Shown piece by piece: positions 6,966 through 41,761 of a stretch of 42,596 nucleotides of DNA. The DNA is from Opitutales bacterium (GTDB lineage Bacteria; Verrucomicrobiota; Verrucomicrobiia; Opitutales; UBA953), in NCBI GenBank assembly GCA_024697185.1, contig JAILGB010000012.1, forward strand, positions 1-42,596, in the 5' to 3' direction. The notes beneath the pieces were generated by a model, which did not search any database, was not told the origin of the DNA, and saw only the letters and a program-made list of their open reading frames with translations. Each line of letters starts with the position of its first letter. Within the stretch, counting starts at the first letter, position 1. The position numbers and the translations under genes were made by a program.

Positions 6966-7856
6966 TCAGGCTTCGTCCGAAAAAGATTTGAAAAAGCTCA
7001 ACAGAAGCGCGACAAAAAGCAGAACGGCGCCCACAAAGGTGAGCAGAAGCATTTTGACCTCAAGCGTCGGCAAAAAGATTTGCGCACTCCGCCACGAGCC
7101 CAAGGCGAACAAAATCGCCGCCGCCTGCAAGCCGACCGCCGGCAAAATCCGATGTCGGCAAGCGAACAGCGACAAAAGCCAAGTCGCCAAAAAGACAAGA
7201 ACGCAGGCGGGATTTTGAAAGTCTGCCAAACCCTCCCTCAACGGCTCCAAAAAATGCCAGACGCAGACAAGCGAAACCGAAAAAACGCCCGCGAGCAAAA
7301 ACGGATAGGGATTTTCCCCGAAACGCCATCCGGAAAAAAGCAACGCCGTCAAAACGAGAGCGAGCGTTCCCGCAACCTGCCAGGCGGAATATTCGAAGGC
7401 TCCCGCCGCCGACAAAAGCGCAAAGGCGGACAAAGCGAGCAACAGGGAAAATTCCGCGAGCAAAAAACGCGTTAAAAAACAATGCGGGCGATAGGCGAAA
7501 AGGATAAAAAACAGTTTGGCGAGGACGGAACGGGCGTTCCCGCGACTTTTTGCGGGAACGGCTTGAGCCGGCTCCGCGGGAACGGCAATGCGTTTGAGGC
7601 GATTATCATATTCCTTGCGGGAACGCGAATCGGACAAAATCTGAAACGCTTCATTGATCAGTGCGGAATAATCGGCGATTTCCTCCTGATTTTGCGCACC
7701 GATGTTTTTGTCGGGATGGTAAATCCGCTGGAGATTCTGCCACGCTTTGCGGATTTCCTCCGACGATGCCGACGGGGAAATTTCGAGAACGGCGTAATAA
7801 TCTATAAAATCGCGTTCCCGCACATTTACAAACTTTTCCTCGCCTTCACAAGCCAT
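6966..7856 (-). CDS. Membrane-anchored J-domain protein
   Basis: 296 residues. A J-domain covers about residues 17-85 (DYYAVLEISPSASSEEI, then the HPD tripeptide in IYHPDKN and FQILSDSRSRKEYD). The HPD motif stimulates Hsp70 ATPase, so this should recruit DnaK to the membrane. A linker with two Val-Pro-Ala steps follows. Residues from about 120 on are strongly hydrophobic, with six or seven predicted membrane segments (LLLALSAFALLSAAGAF, LALVLTALLFSGW, FLLAGVFSVSLVCVWHF, LLLTFVGAVLLFVALLL). There is no Gly/Phe region or zinc domain, so it is not DnaJ itself. It lies 6 bp after the TRIC-CutC gene and 63 bp before bamA, suggesting a link with envelope biogenesis. The client is unknown. Confidence 0.75.
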   Translation of the reverse strand: MACEGEEKFVNVRERDFIDYYAVLEISPSASSEEIRKAWQNLQRIYHPDKNIGAQNQEEIADYSALINEAFQILSDSRSRKEYDNRLKRIAVPAEPAQAVPAKSRGNARSVLAKLFFILFAYRPHCFLTRFLLAEFSLLLALSAFALLSAAGAFEYSAWQVAGTLALVLTALLFSGWRFGENPYPFLLAGVFSVSLVCVWHFLEPLREGLADFQNPACVLVFLATWLLSLFACRHRILPAVGLQAAAILFALGSWRSAQIFLPTLEVKMLLLTFVGAVLLFVALLLSFFKSFSDEA

Positions 7857-9224: not shown

Positions 9225-10583
9225 TTATTGGGGAAGTTCGACGACAAGCACCGGGCAGACGGTTTCCGCCAGGAGATGAAAAGTCGCGGGAACGCCGTTA
9301 TAGTTTAAGGCAAAATTTTCCAAACTCGCGCCCTCGGGCAAAAAGGCGTAAACGCGCCCGTCCTTTTGCCGGGTCGCCCAAACGGGCGTTCCCGCGGCGT
9401 CCGTCAGGCCAAAAAAAGCCTGGGTGCCATAAATCGCGTTCCCGTTGACGTCGAGCCATTCGCCGATTTTGACAAAAACTTTTTCCACTGCCGCGGGAAC
9501 GCTCCCGTCGGCGCGCGGATTGATGTTCAGCAAAAGATTGCCGCCCTTGGCGACGCATTCCTGCAATTTGTAAATGACGGTTTCCGGGCTCTTGATGTTT
9601 TTATCATAACGGTTGTATCCCCATTTGTCGCCGACCGTCATGCAGGATTCCCAATCGGTCCCGGGATAACCGGACGCGGGGATATGACGTTCGGGAGTGA
9701 CAAAGTCTCCGTATTTCGTGTCAAAATTTTCGATGACGGCGCTACTGTCCAATCCCGAGTAGGAAAAAAGCCGGTTGTTCATGATGATGCCCGGCTGGAG
9801 TTCGCGGCAAAGTTTGATAAGATCGGATGCTCCCCAGGCGAGATCGCCGGACGCCCGGTCTTGGGAATAGTCCCACCAGATAACGTCAACTTGCCCGTAA
9901 TTGCTCAAAAGCTCGCGAACTTGCGCCGCGAGATAGCGCTTGTAAGCCTCTTGATTGCGCGGAATAAATTTTTGCGTCAGCATCGTCGCCTGCCCTTCGG
10001 GATAGGCGAGATCGGGATTGATCGTCCAGTCGTAATTTTTTTGATGCCAATCCAAAAGGGAATGATAGAAGCCGATCCGGATCCCTTCTTTGCGAAAAGC
10101 CGTGACGTATTCTTTGACGAGATCGCGGCCGACTTGGGCGGCGGAAAAATATCCGTCTTCCTGTTCGGTTTCAAAAAGAGCGAAACCTTCGTGATGTTTT
10201 GTCGTCAGGACCGCATAGCGGCAGCCGGCTTTTTTTGCCAGCGCGGCCCAAGACTGCACGCAATTTTTTTTCGGTTTAAAAAGCGGCAGTGCCTCCGACA
10301 TATAAGTCTCCGTATCGACCTTGGCGTAACGCTGAATCCACTCCGAGCCCATGGGAACGCCACGCCATTCGCCCGCCAGTCCCGAATAAAGTCCGTAATG
10401 GATGAACATTCCGAACTTGGCGTCGCGCCACCAGGCCATTTTTTCGTCCCGGCTCATCGAAGAGCGCGTTCCCGCGGCTTCCGGCGCCGTTCCCGCGAGA
10501 TTTTCATCGGCGGCAAAAAGTTTCGTTCCCGCGGCAATGCACGCAAATGACAAAATGGAAAGAAGAAGGGGTAATTTTTTCAT
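9225..10583 (-). CDS. Secreted alpha-L-fucosidase, GH29
   Basis: About 452 residues. From the ATG at 10583 the protein starts with a signal peptide (MKKLPLLLSILSFACIAAG); a GTG at 10604 would add seven residues. The GH29 fold is plain: AWWRDAKFGMFIHYGLYS at the N-terminal strand, AVLTTKHHEGFALFET with the His pair, IGFYHSLLDWH, and DVIWWDYSQ carrying the Asp nucleophile. A C-terminal beta-sandwich with VYAFLPEG follows. GH29 enzymes release terminal L-fucose from glycans such as mucin O-glycans. It lies 9 bp before the TRIC-CutC gene and 33 bp after nadA, with a hairpin between. No fucose catabolic genes are seen in the window. Confidence 0.9.
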   Translation of the reverse strand: MKKLPLLLSILSFACIAAGTKLFAADENLAGTAPEAAGTRSSMSRDEKMAWWRDAKFGMFIHYGLYSGLAGEWRGVPMGSEWIQRYAKVDTETYMSEALPLFKPKKNCVQSWAALAKKAGCRYAVLTTKHHEGFALFETEQEDGYFSAAQVGRDLVKEYVTAFRKEGIRIGFYHSLLDWHQKNYDWTINPDLAYPEGQATMLTQKFIPRNQEAYKRYLAAQVRELLSNYGQVDVIWWDYSQDRASGDLAWGASDLIKLCRELQPGIIMNNRLFSYSGLDSSAVIENFDTKYGDFVTPERHIPASGYPGTDWESCMTVGDKWGYNRYDKNIKSPETVIYKLQECVAKGGNLLLNINPRADGSVPAAVEKVFVKIGEWLDVNGNAIYGTQAFFGLTDAAGTPVWATRQKDGRVYAFLPEGASLENFALNYNGVPATFHLLAETVCPVLVVELPQ

Positions 10584-36920: not shown

Positions 36921-38321
36921 TTAATATTTATAAATGCCGTTGGGATCGTAAATCCACCAGCCGTCCGAAGGATCGAGCAAAAGAGGAAGCGTTTGACGGG
37001 ACTTTTCCTTTTTGTCCGGTTTCGCAGGCTCTTCTTTTTTGGGTTGCGGCATTGCCGGCAAATTATCCCCCAATTTTGGCGGATTGAGCATATTGACTCC
37101 GGTTTCTTCCGCACGGACGAGCACTTTGCCGACCCAGCCGAGTTTTTGGGCCTCCGCTGCACTTTCCGACCATTCGCCGCGCGAATTCTTTTTGTAGAGC
37201 AGTTCCTTGTATTCTGCCGGGCTGATGCCCATTTTTTGCGCGACAGCCGCGGAAAGTTTTCCGACCCAATATTCGATCAGGCGCATATCCTCGCGCATAA
37301 ACATCATGCTGGAACGATCGTTAAACTGCGCGAACGGTTCGCTTTGTTCGATCATGGCGTTTTCAAACGCGAACGAGCGTTCCGCCGTCGTCACGATAAA
37401 TGACGCCACACCTCCGCAGGCGCCTTTGACAACGACATAAATCGGCGCGCGGCTGCCGTCGAGGGCATTTTTCAAAAGCAATCCCGCGCGGATCGAACCG
37501 CCCTGACAAGTCGTGATCACGACAAAAATCGGCAGTTTTTCATCGCACTGGTTATAAAAACTGACCTGCTCGCAGGCACTCTGGACCAGTTCCGGCGACA
37601 ACAGACTGTCCAACTCGACGCGGCGATCGGAGATCACCAGCGTTCCCGTGGCTTCGTCATAGGGAGTTTCCGTATAAACCGGTTGCGAGTTGTTGATGTT
37701 TTTCGCAAGTTCCACTTGTTTTTTGGCGATCATTGTCGGTGCGACCAAATAGGCTTCGAGTTCCTTGGCTTCGACATCGATAGCGCGTTTTTCAATATTG
37801 ACGAGCATCAGTTCAAGTTTCTTCTTTTGCAGCGCGACAGAATCTTTTGCCTGCAAAAGCGCCAGCTGTGCCTCGCAACGGCTGCGCTCCTGGTTGGCGG
37901 CGAGCAATTCGTCCGCGAGGCGTTTTTCCGCCAGCGTATTCTCTTTTTGCAAGCGCTCCAATTCGCTAAAGGTCTCAGCAAGTTTCATATCCTGCTGCGC
38001 CCGCAGAATATCGCGTTGCGCGTTCATTTCCCCCTGCTTCATCCGCAAGCTGGCGATCTGCGCCTCCAAAGCGGCGATTTCCCTGCCCTTGGCCTGCATA
38101 TAGGCGACGGGATCCTCTATCGTCGCGGGAACGGCTTCCGCGGGAACGGCCTCCGCGGGAACGGGATTTTCGCTTTCTTTTACGACCTGCGTTTCCGTCG
38201 CGGGAACGGCATTCGTTTTTTCCGGCTCCGTTACGGGAACGCCTTGCGCCTCCGCGGGAACGTTATTGCAACCGGCCAATGTTACCGACGCGGCGATTAA
38301 AAAATAAAATAAATGTTTCAT
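36921..38321 (-). CDS. Exported ClpP-like lipoprotein lacking the catalytic triad
   Basis: 466 residues. The signal ends in a lipobox, TLAGC-NN (Cys18). Residues 20-75 carry Val-Pro-Ala-Glu repeats, written by seven octamer copies. Residues 75-200 are a long coiled coil. The ClpP/crotonase-like domain (about 225-385) keeps the glycine loop (VITTCQGGSIRAGLLLK). Against the paralogue upstream, the Ser position in KGACGGVASF is Gly, the His position in AMIEQSEPF is Gln or Ser, and the Asp position in AEYKELL is Leu. The protein ends in SDGWWIYDPNGIYKY, like the paralogue's tail. It is probably a non-catalytic partner. The two genes are 26 bp apart. Confidence 0.8.
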   Translation of the reverse strand: MKHLFYFLIAASVTLAGCNNVPAEAQGVPVTEPEKTNAVPATETQVVKESENPVPAEAVPAEAVPATIEDPVAYMQAKGREIAALEAQIASLRMKQGEMNAQRDILRAQQDMKLAETFSELERLQKENTLAEKRLADELLAANQERSRCEAQLALLQAKDSVALQKKKLELMLVNIEKRAIDVEAKELEAYLVAPTMIAKKQVELAKNINNSQPVYTETPYDEATGTLVISDRRVELDSLLSPELVQSACEQVSFYNQCDEKLPIFVVITTCQGGSIRAGLLLKNALDGSRAPIYVVVKGACGGVASFIVTTAERSFAFENAMIEQSEPFAQFNDRSSMMFMREDMRLIEYWVGKLSAAVAQKMGISPAEYKELLYKKNSRGEWSESAAEAQKLGWVGKVLVRAEETGVNMLNPPKLGDNLPAMPQPKKEEPAKPDKKEKSRQTLPLLLDPSDGWWIYDPNGIYKY

Positions 38322-38347
38322 CGTTTCAAATTCCTTTCACTCTCTGA

Positions 38348-39697
38348 CTATTTGCTCTCGCGATACATGCCGCGCGGATCCGTAAGCCACCAGGCGTCTC
38401 CGGACTCCAGGGGCGGCAATTGCAGATAGACTCTGCCCTGCTCGTCGCGGATTTCCGGCAAATCATAAGTCATCGCCGGCGTAAGATCTTTTTTGTTGAC
38501 CGAAGGCTTGACCTGCGATCCCGTTTCGACGACGTATTTCGCCACATGGTCAACCCATTTGCGTTCCTGAGCCTCCTTGCCAAAAACCAGCCAGTCGCCG
38601 CTTTGGAAATGCGCATACATGTCTGCGACAAACTCATCATAAGTGACGCCGACCTTTTCGCAGACGCGATTAAAAATATTTCCCGTCCACATTTTTGTCA
38701 GGTCATAGCTTTCCTTCATCACGGTCATATTGCCCTTCATGCTCGAGGACGGCTGGTGGTGAAGAATAATGGCGTTTTCAAGACAGTAGGAATGCGGCGC
38801 CAAAGTCGTAAAGACGGCGGCCATCGACGCGGCGTAGGACTTGACCAGCACATGCACGGGCGCACGACAGCTTTCGACAGCCTTCAACATCAGATAACCT
38901 GCAAAAACAGAGCCGCCGGGCGAACTGTCGATCACGACAAAAATCGGCTTCTTGGGATCCTGGTTGTCAAAAAACGCCAGGCGGTCGCAAATATATTTTG
39001 CCATATCCATCGTCACGGGACCGTTCATGTCGATACGGCGATCCGAGACATAGAGCACATCGTCCACAAAAGGTTCGTCCAGCTGCATCGGCTGCGCCTT
39101 GGCGATCCCGCGGGCGGCGTTCCCGTAAACAACGCGCATCGCATCCAGTTGCATCTGAGCCATCTCGTTTTCACGACGTCCCGAAGCGATCCGCGCCTCA
39201 ATCTCGCGGGCGTCCCAAAGACGATTGTTGCCGTAAGACTCCAGCGCCAGTTTCGCACCTTGCAAAGACGTTTGCGATTTCAAACGGGCAGTCTCCGCCG
39301 CCGACTCCGACAACTCCGCCTTCAAACGCGCATCCGCCAAACGCTGCTTGGCGGTCAGTTCCTCCGTTTGAAAATCCAAATCCATCAAACGCATCGCCGA
39401 CTCCTGACGCATCAAAGCGGCACGCATCTGCATCAAATCCGCCTGCGCCCGCAAAAGGCGCGCATTTATATTCGCCAAATCTTTTTCCGTCGGCAGAGGC
39501 TGCTGCGGCTTCACGGGAACAGCCTTTTCATCTGCCGGATTTGCCGCGGGAACAGCCTGCTCCGCGGGAACGGGATTCTCCGTTTTGCTCACCGTTGCCA
39601 CATTTTCGGTGGGAACGACCTTCGCCGGCTCTTCCTGGGCGCAGGCAAAAGGTGCCACAGCCAAAAGAGCCAATAATTTTAAACAACTCGTTTTCAT
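38348..39697 (-). CDS. Exported ClpP-like serine protease with intact triad
   Basis: 449 residues. A signal peptide (MKTSCLKLLALLAVAPFACA) and a Val-Pro-Ala/Pro-rich linker precede a coiled coil (about 70-195). The ClpP-like domain has VIDSSPGGSVFAGYLML (oxyanion loop), KSYAASMAAVF with Ser291, AIILHHQPSSS with His314 and YDEFVADMY with probable Asp359, all in ClpP spacing. The C-terminus GDAWWLTDPRGMYRESK shares a WW-x2-DP-x-G-x-Y signature with the paralogue downstream. ClpP is normally cytoplasmic and fed by an AAA+ ring; this one is exported without an obvious unfoldase. A promoter-like TATATA lies 5 bp before the ATG. Confidence 0.82.
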   Translation of the reverse strand: MKTSCLKLLALLAVAPFACAQEEPAKVVPTENVATVSKTENPVPAEQAVPAANPADEKAVPVKPQQPLPTEKDLANINARLLRAQADLMQMRAALMRQESAMRLMDLDFQTEELTAKQRLADARLKAELSESAAETARLKSQTSLQGAKLALESYGNNRLWDAREIEARIASGRRENEMAQMQLDAMRVVYGNAARGIAKAQPMQLDEPFVDDVLYVSDRRIDMNGPVTMDMAKYICDRLAFFDNQDPKKPIFVVIDSSPGGSVFAGYLMLKAVESCRAPVHVLVKSYAASMAAVFTTLAPHSYCLENAIILHHQPSSSMKGNMTVMKESYDLTKMWTGNIFNRVCEKVGVTYDEFVADMYAHFQSGDWLVFGKEAQERKWVDHVAKYVVETGSQVKPSVNKKDLTPAMTYDLPEIRDEQGRVYLQLPPLESGDAWWLTDPRGMYRESK

Positions 39698-40102: not shown

Positions 40103-40837
40103 TCATAACGGGCGTGTCCCTAAAGGCGATAAAAAACGGATTGAATCCGGCAAATATTCCTGAGAGACATAAATTCGAACAATATATCTCAATGTCTTGG
40201 AAATGTCATATTGTATTTCAACGCAAAACAAATCGTCTCGATTATCAACTTTTGACGTAAAATAAAAACCGTTTTCAATCAGCTCTTTTAGCCAGACTTT
40301 TAAATATTTCCCGGAAAAAATTATTTCATCGTCCGTATTTTGATTGAATACGACACGAACAAGCGATGCCTTATTTATAATCGATTCGACGTCATTGCCC
40401 CATTTTAGGGAAATAAAATCAAAATATTTTTCCTTTATAATAATTTCCTCTTCCTTAATTTCTTTTACTTGATAATCAGAACCGAAAAATCTGCCTATAC
40501 GAGTAGATTCTTTTCCGCCCATAGAGTACAATACAAAGGGGGAAATCTGATATTGCGTATTAAAAACTTTATCTTCACCAAAATAAAAAGAGACGGACAG
40601 TAAATTTTCTTTTTTTTGACATTTAATTCTAAGGTCTAAAATAAAATCCTCGTCTATGCTGTTAAAAAAAATAAAGTTTTGATTTCTCTTTGTTTCTTCG
40701 ACATCGAAATAGGAGAAAGGAGCGATTAACTTAGCGCCAGTCAAATGAGTTTCCTCTTGGGGAAATTCAATGCAGATTGAAAATACGTTTACGCTATATA
40801 AAAGATAAGAAAGGAATGAGAAAATTATTTTTTGCAT
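40103..40837 (-). CDS. AT-rich orphan secreted protein, unknown function
   Basis: 244 residues. A probable signal peptide (MQKIIFSFLSYLLYSVNVFSICIEF) is followed by a Phe/Lys/Ile/Glu-rich protein with no known motif (FSYFDVEETKRNQNFIFFNSIDEDFILDLRIKC, VKEIKEEEIIIKEKYFDFISLKWG). Base composition is far more AT-rich than all other genes here, and no iterated octamer lies in it. Both point to horizontal acquisition. It lies beside an IS1595-type element. The C-terminus (LSPLGTRPL) may be altered by an insertion, as the end is abrupt. Function cannot be inferred. Confidence 0.65.
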   Translation of the reverse strand: MQKIIFSFLSYLLYSVNVFSICIEFPQEETHLTGAKLIAPFSYFDVEETKRNQNFIFFNSIDEDFILDLRIKCQKKENLLSVSFYFGEDKVFNTQYQISPFVLYSMGGKESTRIGRFFGSDYQVKEIKEEEIIIKEKYFDFISLKWGNDVESIINKASLVRVVFNQNTDDEIIFSGKYLKVWLKELIENGFYFTSKVDNRDDLFCVEIQYDISKTLRYIVRIYVSQEYLPDSIRFLSPLGTRPL

Positions 40838-40945
40838 TTACAGTTTCTCCAATTCTGTATTTGTTTTAATTTTATTTTTGGGGTAGATAACACGGTCGGA
40901 AGGTCCGGCGGTGCAATCTGTAAAATAATATGGAGGATTACCCCA

Positions 40946-41761
40946 ATGATGTCAAATATAAAATTTTTTAACGGGACGGCGAGGCTTGGAAATTGCCGGG
41001 GAAACAGGACGGCGAGGCTTGGAAATTGCCGGGGAAAGCGGGGCGCGGTGGTGAGAAGGTGTAAACTGTCGCCACAGACGCAGCAGATGCTGTTGCGCTG
41101 TTTTGCGGCGAATATGAGCGGACGGGAGGCGGGACGGTTTTGCGGTGTCAACTATAAAACCGCGTTGTTGTTTTTCAGAAAGTTGCGCGCGGTCATAAAA
41201 GCCGAGCGGGACTTAAAGGCTACCGGCTTTGACGGTTCCAATGCGGTCGCCATCGACGAGTGCTACATCAAAGGAAATTGGGACGGCGGGCGCGTTGCAA
41301 AAACGGTGAAACGCGGACGCGGGACGCTTGGCAAGTTTGTCGTCGGCGGGATCGTGTCGCGGGAGGGTGGGCACCTTAAACGGGTAAAATTTGAGGAGTT
41401 GTCCGGGATCTCCGCCGTCAAGTTGCTGGCGTTTGCAAAACAGCACATCGAGCCGGGCGCGACGGTCTGGACGGACGAGTTTCGAGGCTACAATAAACTC
41501 CGGACGGTTTATGAGCACCGGCGTTGCTGTCACGCGCGCGAGGAGTGGGTGGGCAAGACTGGCGCGACGACGGCTGGCTGTGAGGTGGCGTTTCGTTTTT
41601 TGCGAAAATATCTGAGGACCTACATGTCCGGGTATCGCTACAATTTTAAAATGTTTTTGGCGGAGTGCGAGTGGCGGGTGGAGACGAAAGTCGCGAACGC
41701 GTTCCCGGCGCTGTTGGACTTGTGCGAGCGGGCGCGGGCTGGATTTTTTGTCGCGGCGTAA
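40946..41761 (+). CDS. IS1595-type transposase
   Basis: 271 residues. The start is fixed by GGAGG (40932-40936), 9 nt before the ATG, a strong Shine-Dalgarno site unlike the other genes here. An N-terminal helix-turn-helix-like region (NMSGREAGRFCGVNYKTALLFFRKLR) is followed by the DDE-type core: VAIDECYIKG, GKFVVGGIVSREG, TVWTDEFRGYNKL and a C-terminal Glu in AGCEVAFRFLRKYLRTYM, as in ISXO2-like IS1595 members. The usual zinc-binding N-terminus is missing; a tandem 11-residue repeat takes its place. No convincing terminal inverted repeats or target duplication were found, so the element may be degraded. Confidence 0.85.
   Translation: MMSNIKFFNGTARLGNCRGNRTARLGNCRGKRGAVVRRCKLSPQTQQMLLRCFAANMSGREAGRFCGVNYKTALLFFRKLRAVIKAERDLKATGFDGSNAVAIDECYIKGNWDGGRVAKTVKRGRGTLGKFVVGGIVSREGGHLKRVKFEELSGISAVKLLAFAKQHIEPGATVWTDEFRGYNKLRTVYEHRRCCHAREEWVGKTGATTAGCEVAFRFLRKYLRTYMSGYRYNFKMFLAECEWRVETKVANAFPALLDLCERARAGFFVAA
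40946..41761 (+). mobile_element. IS1595-family insertion sequence (ends not defined)
   Basis: The transposase frame is intact, but I could not match terminal inverted repeats in the flanks (40838-40945 and 41762-41820). Limits given are those of the coding part only. The flanking gene on the left is AT-rich and the right flank G/T-rich, so the element sits in an accessory patch. Confidence 0.6.
40974..41037 (+). repeat. Tandem 33-bp duplication in the transposase N-terminus
   Basis: GGACGGCGAGGCTTGGAAAT starts at 40974 and again at 41007, with the following bases also repeated. The 33-bp period keeps the frame and encodes TARLGNCRG-NR then TARLGNCRG-KR. Confidence 0.92.

Follow-up and report, generated by a model that had tools for sequence, protein, structure and literature searches.

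A tandem pair of predicted exported, stalked ClpP-like proteins in a gut Verrucomicrobiota bacterium, one of which has lost the catalytic triad

Introduction

ClpP is the textbook case of a chambered protease that relies on an unfoldase powered by ATP. Other proteases of the ClpP fold need no ATPase: SppA and NfeD/STOPP are envelope proteases of the S49 type that use Ser-Lys catalysis, and the partners of NfeD are the coiled-coil SPFH proteins. The ClpP-like head-maturation proteases of phages are virion assembly proteins and carry neither an export signal nor a stalk. Mixed ClpP-ClpR rings are found in cyanobacteria, plastids and apicoplasts, in the cytosol or the plastid, where AAA+ chaperones serve them (PMC7966870). 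Of 121 Clp homologues surveyed in 2008, only three were reported as multi-domain, and these were archaeal proteins of the NfeD type (PMC2605481).

The locus described here lies in a 42,596-nt stretch of DNA, referred to as the window, from a gut Verrucomicrobiota bacterium. It encodes two ClpP-like proteins, P1 and P2, which an initial annotation had described as a tandem pair with export signals, one active-looking and one dead. A literature search with poor coverage of subscription journals turned up no description of a ClpP that is exported and stalked, which is weak evidence.

The P1-P2 locus

The ORFs confirm two adjacent genes on the minus strand (Table 1). Their close spacing and the AAAGGA ahead of P2 suggest that the pair is probably expressed from one transcript. 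Homology between P1 and P2 spans almost the entire proteins (29% identity), and a score of 175 bits across that length shows that the likeness is not due to chance. The third-position GC of P2 is ordinary. The neighbors of the pair in this genome are SufS and a GDSL lipase. Upstream of the pair there is a transposase-like ORF (40832-41761) with apparent IS1595-type DDE residues, as judged by eye, adjoined by an ORF with no Pfam match (40103-40837).

Table 1. Positions of P1, P2 and their features in the window
Feature	Position	Strand	Basis
P1, exported ClpP-like protein, triad intact	38348..39697	-	449 aa ORF; PF00574 2.7e-20
P1 Sec signal peptide, residues ~1-20, LLALLAVAPFACA^QE	39638..39697	-	hydrophobic core and A-x-A, by eye
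P1 helical stalk, residues 71-198	39104..39487	-	AlphaFold2 model, pLDDT mostly 82-90
P1 ClpP domain, residues 217-388	38534..39049	-	Pfam, Foldseek, VIA-align
P1 catalytic Ser291	38825..38827	-	S in 136/138 homologues
P1 catalytic His314	38756..38758	-	H in 135/138
P1 catalytic Asp368 (GDW motif)	38594..38596	-	D in 135/138
P1 tail motif WWLTDPRGMY	38363..38392	-	pattern search
P1-P2 intergenic gap, 26 bp, with Shine-Dalgarno-like AAAGGA before the P2 start	38322..38347	-	
P2, exported ClpP-like lipoprotein, triad lost	36921..38321	-	466 aa ORF; PF00574 2e-9
P2 lipobox LAGC, predicted lipidated Cys18	38268..38279	-	sequence, by eye
P2 helical stalk, residues 74-209	37695..38102	-	AlphaFold2 model
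P2 ClpP domain, residues 229-404	37110..37637	-	Pfam; Foldseek to ClpP 3.2e-13
P2 Gly304 at the catalytic Ser position	37410..37412	-	138-homologue alignment
P2 Ser327 at the catalytic His position	37341..37343	-	alignment
P2 Glu383 at the catalytic Asp position	37173..37175	-	alignment
P2 tail motif WWIYDPNGIY	36930..36959	-	pattern search

Export signals are present on both proteins, as annotated: by eye, the N-terminus of P1 is of the Sec type and ends in ACA^QE, and that of P2 has the lipobox LAGC. Wherever the N-terminus of a sampled homologue is intact, it begins with a signal-like sequence, in which the letters are unrelated and the pattern is constant (K/R, a hydrophobic core, then A-x-A or a lipobox). 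The downstream copy has a lipobox, as P2 does, in six of the seven sampled relatives from the genus. P1 and P2 are thus predicted to reside in the periplasm and at the membrane.

AlphaFold2 models, built as monomers with family alignments, consist of i) a disordered proline-rich linker; ii) a single helix; iii) the ClpP domain, which is confident in both proteins (pLDDT mostly >90); and iv) the C-terminal tail. The long coiled coils that had been annotated appear as single long helices, of 128 residues in P1 and 136 residues in P2. The structural alignment of P1 with ClpP starts at model residues 191-200, where the stalk ends, and maps these onto ClpP residues 2-17 at the axial end. In the model, the stalk is attached at the place of the ClpP N-terminal axial segment.

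The two proteins share the annotated WW-x2-DP-x-G-x-Y tail. Searched as a DNA pattern, it is found exactly twice in the whole genome, in P1 and in P2. A role as a general sorting signal was rejected, the pattern (exact matches only) being confined to these two proteins.

ClpP domains and their active sites

Pfam CLP_protease (PF00574) matches both proteins above its cut-off. Sequence matches to the PDB, Foldseek and VIA-align all place ClpP first; the VIA-align Z for P1 against ClpP is 23.7 over 172-175 residues. The likeness does not extend to a full-length curated ClpP, since the best NCBIfam ClpP match scores 61.7 bits where the cut-off is 228. The next-best NCBIfam match of P1 is the phage head-maturation model NF045542 (3.3e-14; 53 bits against a cut-off of 120). 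The SppA model gave 12.9 bits against a cut-off of 155 (E 0.06), SDH-type families gave weak matches (E 0.01-0.02), and no crotonase family in Pfam matched P1 or P2 at E up to 1. The same genome encodes two further ClpPs that lack a stalk, one of which adjoins clpX (contig C29). We are nearly certain that P1 and P2 are an exported branch of the S14 (ClpP) family.

The catalytic columns are occupied almost invariably by Ser, His and Asp across 138 homologues (Table 1), and P1 conforms to them. Ser291 and His314 had been assigned correctly. Asp359, the third residue proposed, was rejected, as 85 of 138 homologues have Gln in its column. The catalytic Asp is instead D368, which lies within a conserved GDW and, in the alignment as read by eye, falls in line with the catalytic Asp (RD motif) of the genome's own cytosolic ClpPs. 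In P2, the first position has the reported Gly, the second has Ser, where Gln or Ser had been reported, and the third residue is Glu rather than the reported Leu. With its triad replaced by G304/S327/E383, P2 is classed as a non-peptidase homologue. Its glycine-rich loop, said to be kept, is kept in part (GGS).

P2 retains 36 of the 55 columns that are conserved at >=95%. Eleven of its 19 losses fall in active-site segments (D257, P260, 290-294, 312-315 and D368), a concentration that is unlike random decay. Besides P2, the only dead copy seen was the upstream one of a relative (G009), and the partner is intact in both cases. The G009 copy (L046 7900-9222) has Gly/Glu/Gln at the triad, and it is the downstream partner that is intact there.

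Distribution and origin of the pair

An alignment-based scan of genome contigs recovered 365 relatives, and a single-sequence scan none. Strong matches, defined by E <1e-110 (the best cytosolic-type ClpPs reach only ~1e-21), were found outside the host's family in 53 of the 384 genomes sampled from the class and, beyond the class, in three genomes of the phylum sample. Among the carriers with names are Haloferula, Phragmitibacter, Opitutaceae MAGs and one Elusimicrobia MAG. Together the relatives make up one coherent family of exported ClpPs, which spans Verrucomicrobiota and includes this Elusimicrobia MAG.

The two proteins co-occur in relatives: the tandem pair is present in 27 of 27 sampled relatives belonging to four genera of the host's family (g1, g2, g3 and g5). 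Another genus of the family, g4, has a single copy in nine of nine. Outside the host's family, most members occur as a single copy; one genome (G259) has a tandem pair of its own. Both triads are intact in 54 of 55 named two-copy loci, which overlap the genomes of the 27 relatives, and the remaining locus is truncated where its contig ends. The active-plus-dead layout is therefore lineage-specific, and the proposal that a ClpP/ClpR-like arrangement is the layout of the system does not hold.

In the tree, the upstream (A) and downstream (B) copies split with moderate support (SH-aLRT 76-89) and g4 joins B. Given this split with g4 inside B, the simplest reading of the sequences is one duplication before the radiation of the host's family, followed by loss of A in g4. 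P1 is copy A by position and by tree, where it joins the upstream copies of the genus. P2 is B by position and the dead copy of G009 occupies place A; the trees settle neither. The branch of P2 is by far the longest (2.7 to 4.4 changes per column), and so long a branch is drawn toward other long branches. A tree constraining P2 to the downstream copies of the genus was 1.76 log units above the free search, a non-significant difference (p-AU 0.58). Signature residues that split copies A and B amounted to six columns, which are too few.

Probable independence from an AAA+ unfoldase

In E. coli ClpP, Tyr60, Tyr62 and Phe82 are the aromatics that bind the IGF loops of ClpX/ClpA. These docking residues are changed in all 66 aligned exported copies: Y60 is replaced by F in 66, Y62 by V in 65 and by I in one, and F82 by S, A, T or G in 66. 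P1 has F, V and S at the three positions. Of the two cytosolic ClpPs in the same genome, the one next to clpX retains Y, Y and F, and the other has Thr, Tyr and Leu. Replacement of the docking residues, combined with the export signals, is a strong argument against an AAA+ partner; the export signals also uphold the annotated view that AAA+ unfoldases of the cytoplasm cannot reach the pair. Judged from the sequences, the family very probably works without an AAA+ unfoldase. Arg170, a contact between the two rings of ClpP, is mostly Gly in the exported copies, which makes ClpP-like ring stacking doubtful.

No conserved neighboring unfoldase or chaperone was found among the loci of the relatives, and the neighbors vary by genus. 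They are a DEAD helicase and TsaD in g1, and psd, an SSF transporter and a cytochrome in g2/g5. Some of the g2/g5 pairs (e.g. L058 86-3869) lie near a row of three proteases, namely a ClpP that lacks the stalk, a rhomboid and a tail-specific protease of the Prc type, making the surroundings protease-rich.

An exported, stalked ClpP that lacks the docking residues raises the question of how a chambered protease is fed without ATP. One model, to which we give even chances, is an ATPase-independent, stalked S14 protease ring of the envelope in which P2, in this organism, is a lipid-anchored pseudoenzyme subunit. Sec export would deliver P1 to the periplasm and P2 would be held at the membrane through its lipid. 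The ClpP domains would assemble into a ring as in ClpP, and the ~130-residue stalks would bundle above the ring entrance. There the stalks would replace the ATPase, serving passively as a clamp or filter and letting in polypeptides that are unfolded or short, to be cleaved by Ser291-His314-Asp368 of P1. Both copies would be active in most relatives; in this lineage, P2 would have lost catalysis, retained the scaffold, and most likely become a structural, lipid-anchoring subunit within a mixed ring. The parts of the model differ in strength. Formation of a ring by the exported ClpPs is likely; that P2 shares a mixed ring with P1 is plausible but falls a little short of an even bet; the axial stalk bundle and the substrates are what we infer. 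Single-copy members elsewhere show that the family can carry out its basic function without a mixed ring. More speculatively, and in our view less likely than not, the family may represent an undescribed, widespread protein quality-control machine of the envelope, in which a periplasmic ClpP ring carries coiled-coil tentacles that catch unfolded clients in place of AAA+ and, in one bacterial family, is built of paired A and B subunits, either of which can lose catalysis.

Alternative readings

The ClpP superfamily fold is shared with crotonases, and the weak SppA and SDH-type matches could be taken to mean that the domain is crotonase-like or SppA/NfeD-like (S49) instead of ClpP. This is hardly credible: Pfam, NCBIfam, and the PDB sequence and structure searches favor ClpP by a wide margin, and the residues of P1 form a Ser-His-Asp triad in ClpP order, with no Ser-Lys dyad. 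Family and fold searches thus rule out crotonase or SppA membership, and a better fit to crotonases, which would have counted against the initial annotation, was not seen. That the domain is genuinely ClpP would also suit ordinary cytoplasmic isoforms with N-terminal extensions. Such isoforms are very unlikely, however, because the signal-like N-termini recur across the family with differing letters in a constant pattern, the ATPase docking cleft is gone, and the genome has two other ClpPs, one beside clpX. We consider it just as improbable that P2 has remained an enzyme by rearranging its active site, e.g. by pairing Glu383 with another nucleophile. Glu is chemically similar to the Asp it replaces, and part of the glycine-rich loop persists, but the nucleophile and the general base are both lost, as are the oxyanion-site residues (P260 to Q, A290 and M292).

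A more serious competitor, though one we rate below even, is that P1 and P2 belong to separate assemblies, P1 being a lone envelope peptidase and P2 either a non-catalytic lipoprotein that binds peptides or acts as a scaffold, or a decaying relic. The single copy in g4 and in nearly all members outside the family is in its favor, the longest branch of the tree fits relaxed constraint on P2, and P2 has no firm position among its relatives. P2 is known from one genome. On the other hand, P2 has kept its reading frame at full length, the signal and lipobox, the stalk, the core of the fold and the tail are all still there, and its third-position GC is unremarkable; the clustering of its losses at the active site is also unlike random decay. 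The stalked ring with P2 as its anchored subunit remains our working model.

A repeated 9-mer in the genome

The 9-mer GCGGGAACG occurs 81 times in the window, against 0.4 copies expected from base composition (e.g. at 38125-38262, 39564, 7535-7625 and 10467-10532). The 1.59-Mb genome has 3488 copies, divided about equally between the strands, against 48 for a reversed-pattern control. Within the genus, eight of eight genomes have it in abundance, with 336 to about 4400 copies each; in the 33 other genomes of the family it stays at background level. In density and strand balance it is like the DNA-uptake sequences of Pasteurellaceae and Neisseriaceae, and on these grounds it looks like an uptake sequence; the rival reading is some other genome-wide signal. 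The genome has a ComEC-type competence gene (C12), and a literature search found no report of a DNA-uptake sequence in Verrucomicrobiota. At least five copies in the linker of P2 (38125-38262) and one in that of P1 (39564-39573) read Val-Pro-Ala. As the VPAE repeats of these linkers coincide with copies of GCGGGAACG, they may stem from accumulation of the DNA word and not from protein function.

Comparison with known systems

P1, P2 and their relatives would be a new family of envelope proteases in Verrucomicrobiota, and cultured genera, Haloferula for example, would allow it to be tested. That one of the paired copies lost its active site, in two separate lineages, provides a natural test of ring sharing.

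Like SppA and NfeD, P1 and P2 have the ClpP fold, a predicted envelope location and, very probably, no need of an ATPase. SppA and NfeD differ in using Ser-Lys, in lacking a fused stalk and the WW-DP tail, and in having very weak sequence likeness to P1 and P2. The phage head-maturation proteases (NF045542) are similar in being S14-like and, as is very probable for P1 and P2, ATPase-independent. The strongest likeness is to ClpP itself (MEROPS S14), in the fold, the Ser-His-Asp order of P1 and the glycine-rich loop. P1 and P2 depart from ClpP by their export, the long stalk and the added C-terminal tail; furthermore, the exported copies differ in the docking-cleft aromatics and Arg170, and have no adjacent or plausible AAA+ partner. 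P2 resembles ClpR in being a dead ClpP paralogue beside an active one, P1. The dead state is here limited to single lineages instead of being lineage-conserved, and the mixed ring is hypothetical.
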